A DNA stretch of 64,000 bases from Roseivirga misakiensis (GTDB lineage: Bacteria > Bacteroidota > Bacteroidia > Cytophagales > Cyclobacteriaceae), in the NCBI RefSeq assembly GCF_001747105.1, contig NZ_MDGQ01000005.1, forward strand, positions 310,001 to 374,000, read 5' to 3'. A program made the translations under genes and the position numbers. The notes below the pieces were generated by a model. The model made no database searches. It was given only the letters and a program-made list of their open reading frames with translations, and was not told where the DNA came from. Below, piece by piece: positions 24,756-34,345 of this stretch. How positions within the stretch are numbered: the first letter of the stretch is position 1; every line of letters begins with the position of its first letter.

Positions 24756-26234
24756 TTATAAGGCGTCCAAAAAAGCTTGCCCATTTTCTAAGTGGGCCTT
24801 TTTCTTGTCTTCTTCCATTTTGTCAAATGTTCTAACTAACATGCCCAAACGTGGATTTTTCAAGAAAAAGTCTCTGTTTATGTGCATAAAGCGCCAGAAA
24901 AGCCCATCCCATGTGACTTGCCAATCGCCCTTTTTGTAGTTGCTCATTTTCATTAAATAATTGGAGCCACTAATGTATGGTTTAGTGGCAAAGAGGCCGC
25001 CATCTGCAAATTGACTCATACCATACACATTAGGTACCATTACCCAATCGTAAGCGTCTATAAATAACTCCATGAACCATCGATAGACTTCTTTTGGATC
25101 AAATTCACAGAGTAACATGAAGTTCCCCAAAACCATAAGGCGTTCGATATGGTGGCAATATCCAGTATTTAATATCTGCTTAATAGTCATGTCTATGGGA
25201 TCTATTCCCGTAGTTCCATCGTAAAAAGAAGCCGGTATTTTTCGATCAAACCCCCAGAAATTTTTGGTTCTTGAAAAACTCCCTTTTGCCTCATACATTC
25301 CCCTTATAAACTCTCGCCAACCGAGAATTTGACGAATAAAGCCCTCTAAATCGTTGATCGCCACATCGTGATCATTGGCATATTTCACGGCTTCTTCAAT
25401 TACCTCTTTTGGTTGAATTAACCCCACATTCATCATAGGCGTCAGTACACTATGATGTAAATAAGACTCATTCGTAACGATAGCATCCTCATAATCCCCA
25501 AAACCATGGAACCGATAATTAAAGAATTGTTCTAGCCATTTCTTTGTCTCATCCCGTGTAGTTGGGTAGGTTTTAGATTTCGGGAGTTGTCCTAAGTTCT
25601 TATCAAAGTGCTCATCAACATAGTCGACAGCATCGCTCCAAAACTTATCAGTTTCAGGATAGTGAATGCTCGGAGGTGTTTTATCTTTTGGGTATTTCTT
25701 TCTGTTTTCTCCATCGAAACTCCATTTTCCACCAGTAGGATTACCGTCTGCATCAATGAGAATATCCCTTTGGCTACGCTGTTGTTTATAGAAGGTGGTT
25801 TGAAAAAACGATTTCTTATCTGGTTTAAAAAAGTGCTTTAAGTCTTCCCTTGTGTTAATAAATAATGGGTTTTCGTGGTGACTGACATCGATTTGAGTCT
25901 CTTTGATTGCTTCAGAAAATCTTTTTTCAAGCCAATTATCGGTTGGGTTAATGAAGTGAATTTTTTCAACCCCCTCTTCGCCTAATTTCTTGATCAAGAC
26001 GCTGATATCCGATCGTTTGTCTGATGAGTCTATGTAGATCACCTCAAGGTTTTTGCTTTCCAAATAAGCCTGATGGCTTTTCATGGATGCTCTGTGAAAA
26101 ACCAGTTTCACTTTGTGGAAGTTGAACTCCTTGAAAAACAGTGATTCCTCTACCAAGTAAATTGGAGCACCGTTATCATATATCTCGTGCTTCTCAAACA
26201 GTTGGTGAGGAAATAAAAGGTTGATTGACTTCAT
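24756..26234 (-). CDS. Cryptochrome/(6-4) photolyase of the FeS-BCP (PhrB-like) group, without cluster cysteines
   Basis: A protein of 492 residues. The alpha/beta antenna domain is at 1-130 and opens [10 protein letters not shown]. The FAD-binding helical domain follows, with the family motifs [51 protein letters not shown] and [16 protein letters not shown]. The double histidine expected at the active site is kept. However, the place of the iron-sulfur ligands (SDYCxxC loop and ACPF in PhrB) reads [19 protein letters not shown], without cysteine, and the upstream ligand position reads DPIDMTI. So the loop is shortened and no 4Fe-4S cluster is expected. It would bind FAD and repair (6-4) lesions or signal light. 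It is coupled to DUF2256 by a 4-bp overlap. Confidence 0.9.
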
Positions 26235-26368
26235 ACTTTTGACTTAGTTCTACGGCATTTTTCACTACAATATTTAACAGCATCCCAATCTCGAGCCCAT
26301 TTTTTTCTCCACGTGAATGGTCGATCGCAAACAGGACATACTTTAGTGGGTAAATGCTCTTTTTTCAT
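26231..26368 (-). CDS. DUF2256 zinc-ribbon-like mini-protein
   Basis: A protein of 45 residues found by reading the minus strand: [20 protein letters not shown], then [20 protein letters not shown] and a short basic tail. Two CxxC-type pairs (CPVC and CSEKC) around a basic, tryptophan-rich core are the DUF2256 signature. The cysteines could hold one zinc ion. It starts 2 bp after the flavin reductase stop and its TGA overlaps the cryptochrome ATG, so all three are co-translated. DUF2256 proteins are repeatedly seen beside photolyase/cryptochrome genes; their role is unknown. Because of its size it is easily missed by gene callers. Confidence 0.9.
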
Positions 26369-26370
26369 GG

Positions 26371-27000
26371 TTAGAACTTTGGTACCTCGCTAACCCTCGC
26401 GTATGGGAAGTCAGCCATTTTTTGAAAGCTGTAATAAGAATTAAGACCAGAGATTCCGACACCTTCTGCAATGCTCAAATCTATATAGCCTTGCGTGCTG
26501 ATCGCCTGGTCTGGAATGTATAAGTGCTCAATTTGCCCTACAAGCATCGTAGTACCACTCGACTGAATCGGCACACTTTCTACGTGTTTCAAACCCATTT
26601 TCAAACCACTTTCTTTCACATAAGGTGCATTAAAGTCGTTCAGCGTTTCCTCAGTAAGGCCGCAAGCCTCAAATTCAGAGATGTCGGCATCGAATTTCGC
26701 TGAAGTGTAATGAGCATTTTCAATGAAATCTTTTTGAATATGATTGATGGTGAAAAAGCCGTTTTCGTTAATATTTTCCTGTGTATGACGGCGTACTTCT
26801 TGACTCGGCCTTACGATAAAGCCTAAATATGCTGGATTACTGCCCAAATGGACTACCGAACTGATGATCGCTAAGTTAGCTTGTCCACTATTCGAACGCG
26901 TGCCGATCAGGTTCCCAGGTTTAATACCAGAGACAGAGTTGATGATATTTAGCCTCTTCACTCTTTCCGTGTTTTCGATATCAGTTTTTGATAAATACAT
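26371..27000 (-). CDS. Flavin reductase-like FMN-binding protein
   Basis: A protein of 209 residues of the flavin reductase-like split-barrel family. The motif [36 protein letters not shown] is the FMN-contact region, and [20 protein letters not shown] follows. Such proteins reduce free flavin with NAD(P)H or act as flavoprotein oxidoreductases. It is 1 bp downstream of a photolyase-like gene and 2 bp upstream of DUF2256, deep inside the light-repair operon. A role in supplying or reducing flavin for the cryptochromes is plausible but inferred. Length is normal. Confidence 0.86.
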
Positions 27001-27001
27001 G

Positions 27002-28459
27002 TTAGTTATTTCTGGTATGGGTTTTTACGATTCTTTTTTTCTCTGCTTTTACCGCTTGGTGCTTTCGATGTCCCCAGATTTTAGCCCGAGCCTTTTTACC
27101 GCTCTCTGTTAAATCAACCAATGGTTTTGGGTAATCTAGCGGAGGGGTGATATTGTTGAAGGTCATATCCATTTCAGTCATTTTCCATGGTTCATGGATG
27201 AACTCTGTTGGCACCTCTCTCAATTCTGGGACCCACATTTTTATGAATTTACCCTCATAGTCATGTTCCTGAGATTGCTTTATAGGATTGTACATCCTAA
27301 TGGTGTTGACGCCAGTAGTGCCAGCCTGCATTTGAAATTGAGGATAGTGAATGCCGGGTTCGTAATCCAAAAAATGATTTGCCAAATGGTAGACACCAGT
27401 ACGCCAGTCTTGGTCTAAATGGTGGCAAAGTATGGAAACCACCATCGCGCGCATCCTAAAGTTTATCCAGCCTGTTTGGGCAACACACCTCATGCAAGCA
27501 TCGACTAGCGGAAAGCCTGTTTTACCTGCTTTCCATGCCTTCACAAACGATTCATTCAAGGGGCGTTCTAATAATTCGTACCCCCGGTTGATGCAGATAG
27601 TCTCATAAGAGCATTCCACTTCAAACTTTTGAATAAAGTGGCAATGCCACTTCAATCTTGTTAAGATTCCGTTAAAAGCGCGCTTATTGTGAGGGTAGTT
27701 TTCGTGACCTTTGATGTGCTGTACCGCTTGCTTAATACTAATGTTGCCCCAGGCTAAATAGGGTGATATTCTTCCGCAGGAAGTTCGGCTTTCAAGTGGT
27801 TTTGATATAAGCCTGTGATAGTCCTTGCCTCGTTCGTTGGTAAATGAATTCAAATATTTCCACGCATTTGATTCTCCTGCAGGTTGGAATTTTTTTGGAT
27901 AATCGCTTAGCCGTTTCTTAAGGGTCGAAGTCAAAGGAAATGGATGCGCTAAAGGCGCTAGTTCTTGTGGGCTATAGGTATTATGAATCTGTGACTGACT
28001 CATGGTAACATACCATTGTTTATCCCATCCATCACGGTCTTTGATACCTCTTTCTATGCCATCTCTTTTGAATTGTGTCCAATGGATATTGTTGGATTTG
28101 AGTAAGTTATAAACTGATTTATCCCTTTCCCAAGTGAGCTGTATACCACTTTCTCGGTGAGAGAAGACCTCTGATATATTGTGATTCGTAATAAGGTACT
28201 CGAATGCCGAAGTGGCATCTTCTTCCATGATTTCTATGGTTCTATTGAATCCACTCAGCTTGCGATTGAAATCTAAAATCGAATGATAGACAAATTGTAA
28301 ATGACGATCAGATGTATCTGGATGCGCCATTAATTCAGGTTCGAAAAGATAAATGATGTAGTAGGGGATACCACGCTGCTCTGCTGCCTGAAGTGGTGCA
28401 TGATCTAGCGTTCTGATATCACGCTTTAGCCAAACGATATTGATCGGGTCCTTTACCAA
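27002..28459 (-). CDS. Cryptochrome/deoxyribodipyrimidine photolyase-like flavoprotein
   Basis: A protein of 485 residues with a DNA photolyase alpha/beta domain at about 5-150 (IVWLKRDIRTLDHAPL, then FSHRESG and ERD) and an FAD-binding domain at about 200-430 (GRISPYLAWGNISIKQAV, KTGFPLVDACMRCVAQTGWI, NFRMRAMVVSILCHHL). Where the CPD photolyase has DGDLAANNGGWQW, this has FLDYEPGIHYPQFQ, so by eye the flavin-facing asparagine is replaced by histidine. The start is TTG (28459), supported by an SD-like GAAGG and by overlap with the upstream stop; no ATG lies nearby. It may be a photolyase variant or a cryptochrome. The substrate is unknown. Confidence 0.87.
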   Translation of the reverse strand: MVKDPINIVWLKRDIRTLDHAPLQAAEQRGIPYYIIYLFEPELMAHPDTSDRHLQFVYHSILDFNRKLSGFNRTIEIMEEDATSAFEYLITNHNISEVFSHRESGIQLTWERDKSVYNLLKSNNIHWTQFKRDGIERGIKDRDGWDKQWYVTMSQSQIHNTYSPQELAPLAHPFPLTSTLKKRLSDYPKKFQPAGESNAWKYLNSFTNERGKDYHRLISKPLESRTSCGRISPYLAWGNISIKQAVQHIKGHENYPHNKRAFNGILTRLKWHCHFIQKFEVECSYETICINRGYELLERPLNESFVKAWKAGKTGFPLVDACMRCVAQTGWINFRMRAMVVSILCHHLDQDWRTGVYHLANHFLDYEPGIHYPQFQMQAGTTGVNTIRMYNPIKQSQEHDYEGKFIKMWVPELREVPTEFIHEPWKMTEMDMTFNNITPPLDYPKPLVDLTESGKKARAKIWGHRKHQAVKAEKKRIVKTHTRNN

Positions 28460-29547
28460 GTTTTTATTTCCTTCTTACATTTTTTCCAGAAAGCAAAAAA
28501 CGATGGGTAATAACCTTTTACGCCAAACATCCAGTCTCTTGGTTCTTCTTCTCCTTCATAATGGCCATTTAGAGGATGTTCCTTAAAGTGAACCTGGCTT
28601 TGACCTATTTTCAGCTTTAGATCATGGAACTCCCCTACAAAAACTTGAAGATCAGGAATATTCTCTCCCAACTTTTGGCAAAATTCCAAGCAATGATCGG
28701 CAACAGGATATCGCTCAAAAATAGAAGGCTCTAAAAGTAAAACTCTGTTCGCTGGCAGGTCCGCATGCCAGTTTGGGTCTAAATTATAGTAGTTATAGAC
28801 TAAGGTTGGTCGACTAGCATCTACTTTTAAATCACTGACCGGAGGTAAGTTTGTAGATAGCCTCAATGGCTGTGTTTCTTTCAGAATTTCTGGTGTCTCT
28901 AATTCCGGAAATGCCTCGTACGGCACATCAAGAAAACTTCCCTTCTGATTTAAGTAAAAGAACGTATTGATGTTCTCTTGATTCGCATAGTATTTCTTGT
29001 TGGCGTTGGCGCCAGCCACCCATTGCCAGCTGAGTGCATTGCTTGCCCAGTCACCATCTAAAAGGTGATAATACATCCATTGTGCAGGCACCTTCCAATG
29101 ACTACGGCCTATGTTACAAGCAATTGAAGCTATATACATGCGCATGTGGTTATGGATATAACCTGTCTTCCAAAGCTTGGCAATATGCTCGTCGACTACC
29201 TCAATTCCTGTCTTTCCTGCCAAGATTGCAGCTGGAATTTGGGTATGGCTAAAATCTGGTTGTTCCCGCTTAAGGTCATTATTGATATCCTCACCTTTTG
29301 CTATCCATATTTGCTGCCAATAGTCTCTCCAAGCTAGTTCTTGTACAAACTTTTCCATTTCAGGCATGCCGTAGCCTTTCTTTAAAAGGCTTTCCAGTAC
29401 AAAACGAGTAGAAATAACACCTCTAGAAATATATGGGGATAGATAACTTACTGCCCCATCTACGAAGTTTCTCGATTGCGCATAGGCTTTCGGATCAATA
29501 GCATCGATTTTGTCAAGAATATTAGAAAACGAGGTTTCGAAGCTCAT
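28453..29547 (-). CDS. FAD-domain-first photolyase homolog with C-terminal alpha/beta-like segment
   Basis: A protein of 364 residues that begins directly with photolyase FAD-domain motifs: AVSYLSPYISRGVIS near 30-45, FVQELAWRDYWQQIW, GKTGIEVVDEHIAKLWKTGY, NHMRMYIASIACNIGR and DGDWASNALSWQW. There is no N-terminal antenna domain. Instead, residues about 245-360 (PTLVYNYYNLDP, ANRVLLLEPSIFERYPVADH, CLEFCQKLGENI, LQVFVGEFHDL) look like an alpha/beta fold, as if the usual order were permuted. The second asparagine of the DGDxxxNN motif is alanine. It overlaps the next gene by 7 bp and the previous one by 4 bp. It is a flavoprotein of unknown activity. Confidence 0.83.
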   Translation of the reverse strand: MSFETSFSNILDKIDAIDPKAYAQSRNFVDGAVSYLSPYISRGVISTRFVLESLLKKGYGMPEMEKFVQELAWRDYWQQIWIAKGEDINNDLKREQPDFSHTQIPAAILAGKTGIEVVDEHIAKLWKTGYIHNHMRMYIASIACNIGRSHWKVPAQWMYYHLLDGDWASNALSWQWVAGANANKKYYANQENINTFFYLNQKGSFLDVPYEAFPELETPEILKETQPLRLSTNLPPVSDLKVDASRPTLVYNYYNLDPNWHADLPANRVLLLEPSIFERYPVADHCLEFCQKLGENIPDLQVFVGEFHDLKLKIGQSQVHFKEHPLNGHYEGEEEPRDWMFGVKGYYPSFFAFWKKCKKEIKTW

Positions 29548-29825
29548 CTCTTGCTGATTTTATTCCCAGTAATTTGTCGTTGAAGTGTACTTTTAAACCG
29601 ATCAATTTCTGGGCTTCTTTTCTTCAAATGCTTTTGACTAACCCCGCTGTTGACTCGCTTTCGCCATAGCTTAAAACTCGAAGGTTTCAGGGTGTTCCGC
29701 ATTAATTTGATGACTTCTTTTTCAGGTAAACCGAATTGTTGGTGAATAGCTTCGAAGGGAGTTCGGTCTTCCCAAGCCATTTCTATCACTCTATCTTTAT
29801 CTATTTCAGAAAGGTTGGAATTCAT
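29544..29825 (-). CDS. TIGR03643/DUF2805 small protein
   Basis: A protein of 93 residues from the ATG at 29825; a TTG at 29840 would add five. The sequence IEMAWEDRTPFEAIHQQFGL, then EKEVIKLMRNTLKPSSFKLW and RKRVNSGVSQKHLKK is the TIGR03643/DUF2805 signature. The first half looks like a helix-turn-helix, followed by a strongly basic tail. The family is reported beside photolyase and light-response genes in many bacteria, and its role is unknown. Nucleic acid binding is plausible from the fold and charge but inferred. The stop overlaps the FAD-domain gene by 4 bp. Confidence 0.87.
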   Translation of the reverse strand: MNSNLSEIDKDRVIEMAWEDRTPFEAIHQQFGLPEKEVIKLMRNTLKPSSFKLWRKRVNSGVSQKHLKKRSPEIDRFKSTLQRQITGNKISKR

Positions 29826-29882
29826 TGGTGTTTTAACCAATTGTCCATAAAACTGTTTGTCTGTGAAGCTTTTAATTTGACG

Positions 29883-30482
29883 CTAATCTTTCAAAAGAAT
29901 ATCACTCTCTTCGAATCTCACAAATCCATTTTTCATCGGCATGCGCCTCTTTTTATTCCAGCAAGCTTTTGCATCTACAAACTTTGCATTAGGATTCGCT
30001 GCCGAAAAGTCTCTGATGTATTGACAGTACATATTATTGGTAGCAATATCTCTTTTAAAGTTGGGGTCTTTCTTTCGCTCTTCCAGTTCTTCCCATTTTA
30101 GCACTGCATCTTGAAGTGTGGCGCCTACATTTTCTTTCACCCAATTCATAAAGTCGCTATGACAACTGAACTTCTTATCCACCTGCGATGACATAAAGGA
30201 TCGAAAGTTAGGTCCGAAAGAAACGTTGTCTGTGATTTTTGTCGCGAGGCTTAATTCTGCCTTAGCCCAATTGAAAGTAGAGTTAGGGCGTATTTTCTTT
30301 TCCTCATTTTTGACTTGACCTTCATGATCAAGGGCGTACATAATTCGATCCCTGAGTATGAATTTGCTGCCATTTGAAGGTAAATGGCTCATTTTACAAA
30401 TGTCCACCATTTCTTCTTTGGTCCAATACCAGTTATTAAATTCTTGTCCCGAATTAATTTGAGTAAAATCAGGTCTTTGCAT
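29883..30482 (-). CDS. SAP-like / DUF6434 domain protein
   Basis: A protein of 199 residues. Residues about 15-55 form a SAP-like helix-loop-helix (WTKEEMVDICKMSHLPSNGS, KFILRDRIMYAL), a fold usually used for DNA binding. The remainder (FNWAKAELSLATKITDNVSF, GPNFRSFMSSQVDKKFSCHS, DFMNWVKENVGATLQDAVLKW) matches DUF6434. A short basic end, WNKKRRMPMKNGF, follows. It is the first gene of the photolyase operon, 57 bp before the DUF2805 gene. A DNA-binding partner of the repair enzymes is a reasonable hypothesis, not shown. Confidence 0.8.
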   Translation of the reverse strand: MQRPDFTQINSGQEFNNWYWTKEEMVDICKMSHLPSNGSKFILRDRIMYALDHEGQVKNEEKKIRPNSTFNWAKAELSLATKITDNVSFGPNFRSFMSSQVDKKFSCHSDFMNWVKENVGATLQDAVLKWEELEERKKDPNFKRDIATNNMYCQYIRDFSAANPNAKFVDAKACWNKKRRMPMKNGFVRFEESDILLKD

Positions 30483-31696: not shown

Positions 31697-33022
31697 TTAG
31701 ATCGGTCTGTTGGCGTCGAATCTTTCTAGGTAGTCAGCTACTCGCCTTACGAACATACCGCCTAAAGATCCATCAACCACACGGTGATCATATGAGTGTG
31801 ATAAAAACATTTTATGACGAATCGCGATTGCATCACCAGTCGGTGTCTCAACAACTGCTGGCTTTTTCACTACTGCGCCTAGTGCTAAAATACCGACTTG
31901 AGGTTGCATTATGATCGGTGTGCCCATTACATTTCCGAATGAACCGACATTAGAAATTGTATAAGTTCCACCTTGTAAGTCGTCTGGTGAAAGCTTATTC
32001 TCTCTCGCTCTTCTTGCTAGATCGTTTACCTTTTTAGTCAGGCCAACCAAGTTATATTGGTCTGTATTGTGAATTACGGGAACAATTAAGTTGCCAGTAG
32101 GTAGGGCAACGGCCATTCCGACGTTGATTGCTTTTTTCTTCACAATGTTGGAACCATCTACCTGCACATTGATCATCGGGTAGTCTTTGATGGCATTGAC
32201 AACGGCCTCTAAGAATATAGGTGTAAACGTGATTGGTTCGCCCTCTTTTTCTTTAAAGGTCTGCTTAATTCTATTTCTCCAGTGAACTATGTTGGTGACA
32301 TCTGCTTCCACAAAAGAAGTTACGTGTGGAGAAATTCGTTTAGAATCCACCATACGCTCTGCAATCATTTTGCGCATGCGATCCATTTCGATGATTTCAT
32401 CTTCACCTGAAATGGAAACAGGCATTGGTTTCGGAGCGCTTGCTGGTGCAGCTGCAGGGGCACTGGATGCTGCAGGAGCACTCACAGGTGCTTGAACTCC
32501 ACCCGCTGGCCTTGACTTTAAATAAGCCATTATATCTTTCTTAGTCACTCTGCCATCTCGACCTGTTCCAGGTACTAACTCCAGTTCAGTCATTGGAATA
32601 CTCTCTTGGCGAGCAATATTCATTACTAAAGGAGAGTAGAACCTATCCGAAGCTGGTTTTTCCAAAACTACGGCATGTCCGTTAGCAGCTGGGGTAGCGG
32701 CTACTGGTGTGGCAGGCTCGCTTGCCGCTTCTGCCTTTGGTGCAGGTGTATCTTGTGCTGGAGCAGCATCTTCTACATCTGCTTCCGTTTCGATTTTTGC
32801 AATCACTGCGCCAACGGCAACTACATCACCTTCTTGCACTAAAATTTCTTTTAAAACACCCCCGTGGGTCGCTGGTACCTCAGTATCAACTTTGTCAGTT
32901 GCTACTTCTAATACAGATTCATCTGCTTCAATAGATTCACCTTCTTGCTTGAGCCAAGACAGTACTGTACCCTCCATGATACTTTCTCCCATCTTTGGCA
33001 TTACCATTTCTACTATAGCCAT
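31697..33022 (-). CDS. 2-oxo acid dehydrogenase E2 (dihydrolipoamide acyltransferase)
   Basis: A protein of 441 residues. A lipoyl domain at 1-78 has the lipoylated lysine K44 in EVATDKVDTEV. An Ala/Pro-rich linker follows, then a peripheral-subunit-binding domain at about 130-165 (SPLVMNIARQESIPMTELE). A second Ala/Pro linker leads to the catalytic domain at about 215-440, with the active-site H413 in SYDHRVVDGS. The enzyme transfers acyl groups to CoA in a 2-oxoacid dehydrogenase complex. The single lipoyl domain and motif pattern resemble the Bacteroidota branched-chain or pyruvate/2-oxoglutarate variants. E1 and E3 are not adjacent, so the exact complex is undecided. Confidence 0.93.
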   Translation of the reverse strand: MAIVEMVMPKMGESIMEGTVLSWLKQEGESIEADESVLEVATDKVDTEVPATHGGVLKEILVQEGDVVAVGAVIAKIETEADVEDAAPAQDTPAPKAEAASEPATPVAATPAANGHAVVLEKPASDRFYSPLVMNIARQESIPMTELELVPGTGRDGRVTKKDIMAYLKSRPAGGVQAPVSAPAASSAPAAAPASAPKPMPVSISGEDEIIEMDRMRKMIAERMVDSKRISPHVTSFVEADVTNIVHWRNRIKQTFKEKEGEPITFTPIFLEAVVNAIKDYPMINVQVDGSNIVKKKAINVGMAVALPTGNLIVPVIHNTDQYNLVGLTKKVNDLARRARENKLSPDDLQGGTYTISNVGSFGNVMGTPIIMQPQVGILALGAVVKKPAVVETPTGDAIAIRHKMFLSHSYDHRVVDGSLGGMFVRRVADYLERFDANRPI

Positions 33023-33097: not shown

Positions 33098-34345
33098 TTA
33101 GTCCGTTAAACTTTTCCTAACCAAATTTAATAATGCAATTTCTGTTAATTCGATATTTAATATTCTATTTTTCGTTAATTGCAGTTTTTTTGCAATGGTT
33201 TGGTTCTCATCTGCATAAGCAATCCATACCGTGCCTACTGGTTTCTCTTCTGTTCCGCCGCCAGGCCCTGCAATTCCACTGCTCGAGGCGCCAATTTCGG
33301 CACCAAAAGCCTTTCTAACGCCTTCTGCCATCTCTTTTACACAAGCTTCACTAACGGCGCCATGTTCTGCTAAGGTTTCTTCTTTTACCCCTAACAAATT
33401 GACTTTGTGGTCATTGTGATATGGGACAACCCCACCTTGGAAATAGGCTGAAGACCCTGCTATGCTCGTGATTTTGTGCTGAACATAGCCTCCTGAACAA
33501 CTTTCTGCCAAAGCGATTGTTTTTCCTTTTTCAATAAGCATTTCGCCAATTGCTTTCTCCAAGGTCATGCCATCATAACCGTAAACGTACTTACCAGCAA
33601 TTGCTAAAAATCCATCTATAAGCCCTTGAACCTCCCTGGCTAAAGTATCTTTGTTTTGACCAACGGCTGTCAGTCTGAGTTTCACATGCCCCACACTCGG
33701 TAAATAAGCCAGAGAAATGTGTGCTGGAAGTGCTTCTTCCCAATCTTTTATTTTATCGGCAAGGAAAGACTCTCCAATCCCCACAGTTTTGATCAATTTG
33801 TGGTAGATGACCGGTGTTTGGAAGGTGGTTTGAAGCTTTGGAAGCACCTTAGTTGTCATGAGATTTTTCATCTCATACGGCACACCAGGCATTGAAACGA
33901 ACACTTTTTTATTACGCTCATACCATGTACAGGGGGCTGTTCCAAGGTCGTTATGAATTACTTCCGCTACTTTGGGAACCAGCGCCTGATTTCGATTCAT
34001 TTCTGTAAACACTCTGCCTCTTCTTTCAAAAAAGTCACGAACGTGTTCTAGGACATCATTATTGAGTATAATTTCACTATTAAAGTGTTTAGCCAGCATG
34101 GGCATAGTGAGGTCGTCATTGGTTGGCCCCAAACCACCAGTTATTAAGACGATATCTGCTCTAGACTCTGCCTCTTCAAAAGCCGTCAAGATATCTTGTT
34201 CAGTATCTGCGACGGTAGTCTTTCTTACCACTTTTATGCCCAGTTTGTCCAATTCGGCACTCATCCACTGGGAATTCGTATCAGTGATTTGACCGTAAAG
34301 GATTTCATCTCCGATGGTCAGAATTTCAGCAAGAATTTTTCGCAT
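33098..34345 (-). CDS. cinA: CinA family protein (competence/damage-inducible, NMN deamidase)
   Basis: A protein of 415 residues with an N-terminal MoCF-like domain (EILTIGDEILYGQITDTNSQ, then ITGGLGPTNDDLTM). A middle section follows, then the C-terminal CinA domain at about 260-410 (GKTIALAESCSGGYVQHKIT, VPYHNDHKVNLLGV, SGIAGPGGGTEEKPVGTVWI). The C-terminal domain hydrolyses nicotinamide mononucleotide to recycle NAD, and the N-terminal domain is linked to ADP-ribose pyrophosphatase activity. Its length is normal. It lies on the minus strand between the E2 gene and metZ with small gaps, which may mean only shared direction. Confidence 0.93.
   Translation of the reverse strand: MRKILAEILTIGDEILYGQITDTNSQWMSAELDKLGIKVVRKTTVADTEQDILTAFEEAESRADIVLITGGLGPTNDDLTMPMLAKHFNSEIILNNDVLEHVRDFFERRGRVFTEMNRNQALVPKVAEVIHNDLGTAPCTWYERNKKVFVSMPGVPYEMKNLMTTKVLPKLQTTFQTPVIYHKLIKTVGIGESFLADKIKDWEEALPAHISLAYLPSVGHVKLRLTAVGQNKDTLAREVQGLIDGFLAIAGKYVYGYDGMTLEKAIGEMLIEKGKTIALAESCSGGYVQHKITSIAGSSAYFQGGVVPYHNDHKVNLLGVKEETLAEHGAVSEACVKEMAEGVRKAFGAEIGASSSGIAGPGGGTEEKPVGTVWIAYADENQTIAKKLQLTKNRILNIELTEIALLNLVRKSLTD

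Follow-up and report, generated by a model that had tools for sequence, protein, structure and literature searches.

A putative photorepair gene module of Bacteroidota and its photolyase look-alike with exchanged active-site residues

The window analysed here is the whole stretch of 64,000 nucleotides taken from Roseivirga misakiensis (contig NZ_MDGQ01000005.1, positions 310,001 to 374,000). Between positions 24756 and 30482 it carries seven open reading frames, all on the minus strand, whose places and Pfam and NCBIfam families agree with a preliminary description of the locus. In the direction of reading, these are a SAP_new25-DUF6434 protein (29883..30482, Pfam domains), a small DUF2805/TIGR03643 protein (29544..29825; PF10985 5e-35, 120.1 bits against a cut-off of 22.5; TIGR03643 116 bits against 66.55), an inverted-order photolyase of 364 aa with its FAD domain first (28453..29547, FAD_binding_7 alone), a protein of 485 aa with a full-length photolyase fold, called PCF here (27002..28459, DNA_photolyase and FAD_binding_7), a split-barrel flavin reductase (26371..27000; PF01613, 55.2 bits against a gathering score of 27; related to 3fge, E 1e-58), a Cys-rich DUF2256 protein of 45 aa (26231..26368; Pfam profile, 81.5 against 25 bits) and a DPRP-type photolyase of the PhrB/CryB family (24756..26234; PF04244 4e-53, DPRP and FAD_binding_7). 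The tight spacing described from DUF2805 onward was reproduced from the coordinates, with gaps of 1-2 bp or overlaps of 4-7 bp. DUF2805 and the inverted photolyase overlap by 4 bp, the latter and PCF (start codon TTG) by 7 bp, and DUF2256 and DPRP by 4 bp; gaps of 1 and 2 bp separate PCF from the reductase and the reductase from DUF2256, respectively. The SAP gene lies upstream of DUF2805, at 57 bp from its ATG at 29825 (product of 93 aa) or at 42 bp if the TTG at 29840 is used (98 aa).

The six genes from DUF2805 to DPRP form a module of Bacteroidota that recurs in many genomes in the same order, DUF2805, inverted photolyase, PCF, flavin reductase, DUF2256 and DPRP photolyase. Outside the window, we compared the loci of the best 80 of at least 580 confirmed relatives of the inverted photolyase, which was the search query; because only these were kept, the sample is biased towards close relatives. 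At least two module genes were found at 74 of the 80. Scattered orthologs without conserved order, named in the preliminary description as evidence against a common operon, were not what we observed, since order and a single strand were kept in 72 of the 74. The 208 spacings between successive module genes at the outside loci, measured between tblastn match ends, had a median of 11 bp and were of 50 bp or less in 184 cases. Given such short spacings and the order and strand kept in 72/74 loci, the clustering exceeds what chance would produce. Three photolyase-type genes lie side by side in 21/80 outside loci, which together with the conserved order supports a photorepair module. Among cultured relatives, Cellulophaga baltica and Spongiivirga citrea carry the greater part of the module. 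The photorepair part of the earlier proposal is supported to this extent, less its SAP member.

That member had been counted into the operon, and here the preliminary description failed: SAP-DUF6434 stands at the module in 1/80 outside loci only. DUF6434 occurs in 6 of the 118 genomes that we sampled from the order of the host, and in the five besides the present one it lies on contigs that carry no module gene. On these counts we ruled it out as a module member and judge the gene to be a neighbour in this genome, outside the conserved module. A gene for a 134-aa protein fills the slot upstream of DUF2805 in 15/80 outside loci; the one tested of these 15 proteins is a DUF2452 protein.

The same order sample, whose counts take no account of ancestry, was used to examine pairs of genes lying at most 5 kb apart among genomes having both. 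DUF2256 was found in this way with DPRP in 29/59, with the inverted photolyase in 12/16, with PCF in 14/44 and with the reductase in 19/75 genomes. The inverted photolyase was close to DUF2805 in 9/14 and to the reductase in 8/14. A promoter motif search of 78 stretches upstream of DUF2805 or the inverted photolyase gave no clear common element, and a Bacteroidota-type promoter pattern was matched in 4 of them. The top k-mers in these stretches may derive from upstream coding sequence.

Most parts of the module are of known kinds. Pfam assigns residues 67-189 of the inverted photolyase to FAD_binding_7 and detects no DNA_photolyase domain in it; alignment and an AlphaFold model (pLDDT 92.5, C-terminal part alpha/beta) likewise place the FAD domain first, with no N-terminal photolyase (antenna) domain. 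Of the 14 active-site residues of E. coli photolyase (numbering without Met1), whose roles we take as assumed, ten are identical in 16/16 inverted photolyases (R226, W277, R278, N341, W359, D372, D374, N378, W382 and W384) and E274 and M345 are kept in 14/16. R342 is a His in 16/16, and W306 of the Trp chain is replaced. With a CPD-repair active site kept, the protein is predicted to be a CPD photolyase. It would split cyclobutane dimers, with single-stranded or unpaired DNA as the probable substrate, by analogy with its NewPHL/Phr7 kin, of which the NewPHL inverted photolyases were reportedly described by Emmerich et al. Identity with a Ruegeria FAD-first protein is 36% over 195 FAD-domain columns; a profile alignment with the alphaproteobacterial FAD-first protein ends at residue 199, leaving the C-terminal domain (cf. 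Z-domain) uncovered.

In the DPRP photolyase, both the DPRP domain (PF04244) and the photolyase FAD domain (PF03441) score above cut-off, and PDB matches include 7ykn, 5kcm and 3zxs. The four cysteines of the [4Fe-4S] cluster are absent, a Pro standing in place of the first and the two-Cys loop being deleted. They are equally absent from the 43 operon relatives read, out of 45 outside loci with DPRP; we also read the cysteines in 40 of the 62 other order genomes with DPRP, picked among the highest and the lowest scores. The protein is filed as an iron-sulfur-free DPRP and not as an FeS-BCP because these cysteines are missing. Alignment to 5kcm indicates that the active-site His pair and Tyr are kept; that these are the residues that matter is, Y424 excepted, our assumption. 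Y424 is named in the title of structure 5lfa. Such an enzyme may have (6-4) photoproducts as its substrate, or else CPDs, which one paper predicts for forms of this kind.

The two small proteins accompany photolyases with variations. DUF2256, assigned to the zinc-type TRASH clan in the available text of PMC4047054, occurs in the vicinity of genes for DPRP, PCF or the inverted photolyase. DUF2805, perhaps a small helix-turn-helix-like protein as judged by eye, is present at 49/80 outside loci, where it precedes the inverted photolyase on the same strand. Ten genomes of the order, mostly small, gave no photolyase match; DUF2256 is found in 1/10 and DUF2805 in 0/10 of these, compared to 93/108 and 80/108 of the others, counts that are not corrected for ancestry and include three weak DUF2805 matches (G018, G069 and G103, the last with internal stops). 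In 13 genomes the two also stand together with no DPRP, PCF or inverted photolyase gene in the surrounding 5 kb, and on one plasmid each of Pseudoalteromonas and Nostoc DUF2805 has no annotated photolyase within 6 kb. No PDB sequence matched DUF2805 at E 10 or better, and matches for DUF2256 were weak (best E 0.17). In the open literature searched, we found no paper joining DUF2256 with cryptochrome, nor one joining two of TIGR03643, DUF2805 and photolyase.

PCF departs from this picture of familiar parts. We aligned 38 PCF sequences from Bacteroidota, Proteobacteria and Deinococcota. In all of them the flavin-N5 Asn N378 is replaced by His and the lesion-binding N341 by Phe; R226 is also replaced in 38/38. 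Further exchanges are E274 to Arg and W384 to Met (37/38 each), R278 to His (35/38) and a change at M345, while W277 and R342 stay. In the window PCF, H371, F334, R268, M377 and I218 take the places of N378, N341, E274, W384 and R226, respectively. W382, the Trp closest to the flavin in the classical photoreduction chain, is replaced in 38/38 (Phe 25, Val 5, Leu 5, then Thr, Ile and Cys once each). The flavin contacts Y222, R236, S238, R344 and D372 are unchanged in 38/38; T234 is Cys in 33/38 and A377 is Ile in 38/38. The pattern of exchanges is consistent: the active site is remodelled, not decayed. The loss of most repair residues in this middle photolyase had not been pointed out in the preliminary description.

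The nearest solved folds to PCF are 1np7 and 4u63 (TM-scores 0.81 and 0.84, respectively). The PCF model has two weak stretches, residues 281-300 and 371-390. In a quick LG+G4 tree search, which carried a long-branch warning and in which one of ten DASH-type rows (L194) was NCBIfam-checked, PCF rows form one clade and DASH-type rows a separate one. On the DASH profile TIGR02765 (cut-off 317), PCF scored 142 bits and a Vibrio relative 183, compared to 591 for L194, the DASH protein of the order. The score below cut-off, the separate clade and the residues rule out a DASH cryptochrome. A class I CPD photolyase is ruled out by the residues, the canonical R226, E274, N341, N378 and W384 being absent in 38/38 PCF and present in 16/16 class I-like rows. 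Phage relatives (10 records) share 26 to 30% identity. Within the order, PCF was detected in 45/118 genomes at E below 1e-100, and in at least 46 when G021 is included (E 2e-73), since this protein, under threshold, shows the PCF residues (L199). No description of PCF was found in the open literature searched, a search confined to papers outside subscription and hence without the NewPHL paper.

A listing of 30 out of 192 records was used to look at the neighbours of PCF. A relative of the reductase directly follows PCF in the eight Vibrio records listed (of 11 counted); in Salinivibrio and Tritonibacter, the gene after PCF is DUF2256. Deinococcus proteins join PCF and a uracil-DNA glycosylase domain in one chain, as seen by Pfam on one protein and by gene spans on two more; in strain QL22 PCF adjoins genes for DNA polymerase IV and spore photoproduct lyase. 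Three Pseudoalteromonas stretches (L180, L187, L188) have PCF but none of reductase, DUF2256 and DUF2805. Of the 39 order genomes with both genes, only four have the reductase near PCF, and the two are far apart in 5/13 plasmid records compared.

We favour, with a probability of roughly 0.6, a photorepair module of Bacteroidota whose genes are probably co-expressed, presumably from a common transcript, with labour divided among the photolyases, PCF, the reductase and the DUF proteins. PCF would most likely serve DNA repair in a new way, the adjoining reductase supplying it with reduced flavin chemically instead of by Trp-chain photoreduction. The loss of a chain Trp alone is no proof of chemical reduction, because the inverted photolyase also lacks W306. 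DUF2256 and DUF2805 would be small accessory proteins of the repair set.

The strongest competitor is that the genes are bundled by shared stress induction only, their functional link being one of shared timing. This would agree with members entering and leaving the module and pairing in other combinations, and with a reductase often found elsewhere. It accounts poorly for the conservation of order, beyond membership, in 72/74 loci and for the recurrence of PCF with reductase or DUF2256 in Proteobacteria, and we consider it less likely than not.

A narrower question is what PCF does. It could be a light-driven repair enzyme for another lesion, such as deaminated (uracil-containing) or other photoproducts, with the glycosylase finishing the reaction in Deinococcus. 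The fusion, the QL22 neighbourhood and the consistent remodelling of the active site point in this direction. However, no glycosylase gene recurs beside the Bacteroidota module among the part of the recurrent neighbours that is annotated, and we know of no characterised photolyase that has His at N5; the proposal appears unlikely. The fuller version, in which PCF is a new functional class with an N5 His, no Trp-chain photoreduction, charging by a dedicated reductase, a lesion left by classical photolyases and DUF2256/DUF2805 as partners, we hold to be unlikely.

Having lost the catalytic residues, PCF could also be a scaffold or a binder of nucleic acids with no photochemistry of its own. A chain named 'DNA photolyase, putative' in 7pua, presumably a trypanosome mitoribosome assembly structure, is among the PCF matches and may be such a protein. 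Five invariant flavin contact residues would be needless for a pure scaffold, which makes this role quite improbable. A cryptochrome-type light sensor, regulating the operon or other genes, in line with the light-sensing reading of the preliminary description, appears more doubtful still. Plant and animal cryptochromes are established receptors, photolyase-like proteins can act as such, and PCF has lost most repair residues while keeping the fold and several flavin contacts. Nevertheless, all 38 PCF sequences have another residue in place of the flavin-proximal Trp on which cryptochrome photoreduction relies, no signalling partner was seen among those recurrent neighbours that are annotated, and the Deinococcus protein carries a glycosylase. 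Moreover, the genome has a separate CarH/LitR-like candidate, a MerR and B12-binding protein on contig C2; consistent with the earlier statement that the window holds no LitR/CarH regulator, the genome search for B12-binding domains gave no match inside it. Finally, a single multi-protein photorepair complex, which tight spacing and gene overlaps might suggest, is very improbable given that subsets of the module occur apart at many loci, e.g. an inverted photolyase where PCF, DPRP and reductase are all missing.

Photolyases belong to the best understood light enzymes. PCF is a conserved member, present in three phyla or more, in which other residues take up much of the textbook active site. 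The make-up of the cluster suggests that this look-alike may now have a different task in the repair of sun damage. If true, its lesion might be, for example, a deaminated, uracil-bearing product, as the fusion to uracil-DNA glycosylase hints. Its place between two repair-type photolyases and beside a reductase makes possible a direct test of whether it uses chemically reduced flavin or repairs another lesion. In addition, two common small proteins, DUF2256 and DUF2805, become tied to photorepair with named partners.

Compared with known systems, PCF shares with class I CPD photolyases and DASH cryptochromes the whole fold and several flavin contacts, and differs at their lesion and N5 sites, where 37 or all of the 38 sequences carry other residues. 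The bifunctional CPD/(6-4) photolyase operon of Synechococcus PCC 7335, UV-inducible and class-II-related, also joins photolyase genes, but only two according to the available text of PMC9649867. From the same text, the PhrSph98 type has a conserved lesion-stabilising Glu and Asn and a chain Trp, where PCF has other residues (Arg and Phe for the first two) if the numbering is equivalent, as we presume; a PhrSph98-type enzyme finds no support in these residues. The light-inducible, LitR-controlled clusters of Pseudomonas likewise place photolyase-type genes, phrB and cryB, beside other genes; the set differs, and the portion of PMC9758184 consulted names neither an inverted photolyase nor a flavin reductase. 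The DPRP protein has in common with FeS-BCP/CryPro proteins (PhrB, CryB) the DPRP domain, the HH pair and active-site Tyr residues, and differs in having no cluster cysteines; an iron-sulfur-free Phr2/PromaPL form appears in the available text of PMC9426592. Phr7 inverted photolyases are treated there too, and our inverted photolyase has in common with NewPHL/Phr7 an N-terminal FAD domain, another C-terminal domain, the CPD active-site residues and, going by that text, the lack of an N-terminal antenna domain. Unlike them, it sits in a six-gene module of Bacteroidota.

The seven ORFs proposed in the preliminary description for positions 30482 to 24756 (SAP-DUF6434, DUF2805, an inverted photolyase with its FAD domain first, the middle photolyase PCF, a flavin reductase, DUF2256 and the PhrB/CryB-family photolyase DPRP) are all present on the minus strand, and Pfam and NCBIfam return the same family names for their products. 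The tight spacing claimed from DUF2805 onward was measured as -4, -7, +1, +2 and -4 bp. The source genome, 4.45 Mb in 5 contigs and 99.95% complete, carries photolyase FAD domain matches at four loci: three in the operon and one elsewhere, an ordinary class I-like photolyase near C5:2400000. Two proteins encoded upstream of the operon, judged by eye as 2-oxo-acid dehydrogenase E2-like (31697-33022) and CinA-like (33098-34345), are apparently ordinary housekeeping functions. A candidate light regulator, a CarH/LitR-type MerR and B12-binding protein, is encoded outside the window on contig C2 of this genome (G000:C2 ~82605-82811; L207:1078-1980, minus strand). It scores 81.5 bits against the NCBIfam CarH model, below the cut-off of 400. 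Its gene stands beside an ECF-type sigma factor gene and a fatty-acid-hydroxylase-family gene that possibly encodes a carotene hydroxylase.

Gene order was compared at outside loci found with a profile of 16 inverted photolyases, keeping the best 80 of at least 580 confirmed relatives. These were mostly labelled Bacteroidota, many being metagenome bins; the few bins labelled Gammaproteobacteria, Rhodobacteraceae or Verrucomicrobia may be binning errors. Searches with the window proteins detected DUF2256 at 51/80, DUF2805 at 49/80, DPRP at 45/80, PCF at 35/80 and the reductase at 28/80 of these loci, with the three photolyase-type genes together at 21/80 and the full six-gene set at 7/80, all lower bounds because some contigs are short (58 of the 80 loci had sufficient flank). 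The order DUF2805, inverted photolyase, PCF, reductase, DUF2256, DPRP was kept on one strand at 72 of the 74 loci carrying at least two of these six genes (hereafter the module), the reductase and PCF being swapped at the remaining two. SAP-DUF6434, previously included in the operon, does not belong to this conserved set: it was detected at only 1/80 loci, and DUF6434 occurs in 6 of 118 genomes sampled across the order. The slot upstream of DUF2805, filled by SAP-DUF6434 in the window, is occupied at 15/80 loci by a 134-aa gene (L038:4263-4670 and 14 others), a DUF2452 in the single one examined.

In the 118-genome sample, DUF2256 was present in 94 genomes, the operon-type flavin reductase in 81, DUF2805 in 80, DPRP in 63, PCF in 45 (at least 46) and the inverted photolyase in 16. 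All 16 inverted photolyase genes had at least one other module gene inside 5 kb. DUF2256 lay within 5 kb of the inverted photolyase in 12/16 genomes, of DPRP in 29/59 genomes with both, of PCF in 14/44 and of DUF2805 in 24/76. The module genes also recombine. Four genomes carry two separate clusters, DUF2805-PCF-DPRP and inverted photolyase-reductase-DUF2256, and two (L120/G024 and L123/G040) carry a reductase-DUF2256-DUF2805 trio but give no match to DPRP, PCF or the inverted photolyase, so that the trio could serve a separate function. DUF2805 was found in 0/10 and DUF2256 in 1/10 of the genomes without any photolyase match, versus 80/108 and 93/108 of the others (Fisher p ~5e-6 and ~1e-6, respectively, uncorrected for ancestry). 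Outside the phylum, no annotated photolyase was found within 6 kb of DUF2805 on two plasmid stretches; Acinetobacter plasmids also bear TIGR03643/DUF2805 genes (plasmid matches H52-H56). Inspected by eye, DUF2805 resembles small HTH proteins. DUF2256 is placed in the TRASH zinc clan in PMC4047054.

The inverted photolyase carries its FAD domain at the front, and the N-terminal antenna domain is absent (Pfam). Its confident structure model (pLDDT 92.5) has an alpha/beta part behind the FAD domain. PDB sequence matches stop near residue 189 and the first ten structure matches cover 201-243 aligned columns (TM-scores 0.41-0.47), so in these searches solved relatives are limited to the FAD part. 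Sites were compared by alignment to E. coli Phr (numbering without Met1), with the roles we take its active-site residues to have. R226, W277, R278, N341, W359, D372, D374, N378, W382 and W384 are retained in 16/16 inverted photolyases, and E274 and M345 in 14/16; R342 is His in 16/16 and W306 is replaced. In these features the protein agrees with NewPHL, the inverted single-strand CPD photolyases called Phr7 in PMC9426592.

DPRP matches PhrB, CryB and other solved family members (PDB, E 4e-79 to 1e-66). The window protein lacks all four cluster cysteines: Pro and Val replace the first and the fourth, and a deletion in the CxxC loop removes the other two. The active-site His pair and Tyr residues are retained. 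The fourth position is Cys in 0/43 operon relatives. Two kinds of DPRP exist in the order, since 20 of 40 others have the cluster cysteines and 20 do not. DUF2256, PCF or DUF2805 lies within 5 kb of 17/21 Fe-S-free DPRPs (window protein included) versus 6/20 Fe-S forms (p = 0.0016). DPRP matches in two genomes are split across two frames (G102:C25:26114-26907 and G104:C41:29838-30490), as broken genes or sequencing errors. In PMC9426592, Fe-S-free forms are already described from picocyanobacteria and expected to act on CPDs, and PromaPL, also Fe-S-free, is cited as a (6-4) enzyme, so the DPRP substrate could be either.

PCF is modelled with a full photolyase fold (pLDDT 86.8; lowest confidence at residues 281-300 and 371-390 and over the final five), best matched in the PDB by 4u63 (TM 0.84, 23% identity) and 1np7 (TM 0.81, 21% identity). 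We compared 38 PCFs from Bacteroidota, Gammaproteobacteria, Alphaproteobacteria and Deinococcota with 16 class I-like and 10 DASH-type sequences. The canonical residues are retained in 16/16 class I-like rows and in the DASH-type rows except for M345 (Gln) and W384 (Tyr). In PCF, N378 is His and N341 Phe in 38/38, E274 is Arg and W384 Met in 37/38, and R278 is His in 35/38; R226 is Ile, Met or Leu and W382 is replaced in 38/38. T234 (Cys in 33/38) and A377 (Ile in 38/38) are not retained either. Y222, R236, S238, R344, D372, R342 and W359 are nevertheless kept in 38/38, and W277 in 37/38. In the tree, PCF forms one side of a single branch (SH-aLRT support 100%). The PCF active site is thus consistently remodelled rather than decayed. 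Within one family of the order, PCF relatives measure 563-570 aa (L200:592-2304, L202:383-2074); they have extra N-terminal-domain sequence and the PCF active-site residues.

Outside Bacteroidota, a related flavin reductase lies 106-666 bp downstream of PCF on the same strand in 8/8 Vibrio records among the matches listed, of 11 counted (THAF191c, THAF191d and THAF64 look like near-duplicates). Five other records among the matches listed, four from Pseudoalteromonas and one from Persicobacter, have the reductase far from PCF. DUF2256 directly follows PCF in Salinivibrio and Tritonibacter, and three Pseudoalteromonas stretches carry PCF without reductase, DUF2256 or DUF2805. A uracil-DNA glycosylase (UDG) annotation lies under the PCF match in 7/7 Deinococcus records among the matches listed. 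The PCF-UDG fusion on a plasmid of Deinococcus QL22 (L185:3983-6262, 759 aa) has both photolyase domains and PF03167 (Pfam); on two other Deinococcus plasmids (L208:3995-6316, 773 aa; L209:3977-6259, 760 aa) a single annotated gene spans the match. In D. gobiensis, the annotated gene starts inside the PCF match.

On the simplest reading, the module would be a set of UV-repair tools: a pair of repair-competent photolyases, PCF as one remodelled partner, and a flavin supply for PCF. Normal photoreduction of PCF should fail because the flavin-proximal Trp is missing, and the adjoining reductase could load reduced flavin into PCF. The glycosylase fusion points to a role of PCF in DNA repair rather than signalling. 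In the open literature searched, we found no description of the module, of the PCF residues or of a DUF2256/DUF2805-photolyase link, which is weak evidence for their novelty. Precedents exist for inverted photolyases, for Fe-S-free DPRPs and for photolyase operons; PCF is the part of the module which could be more than a variation on known systems.
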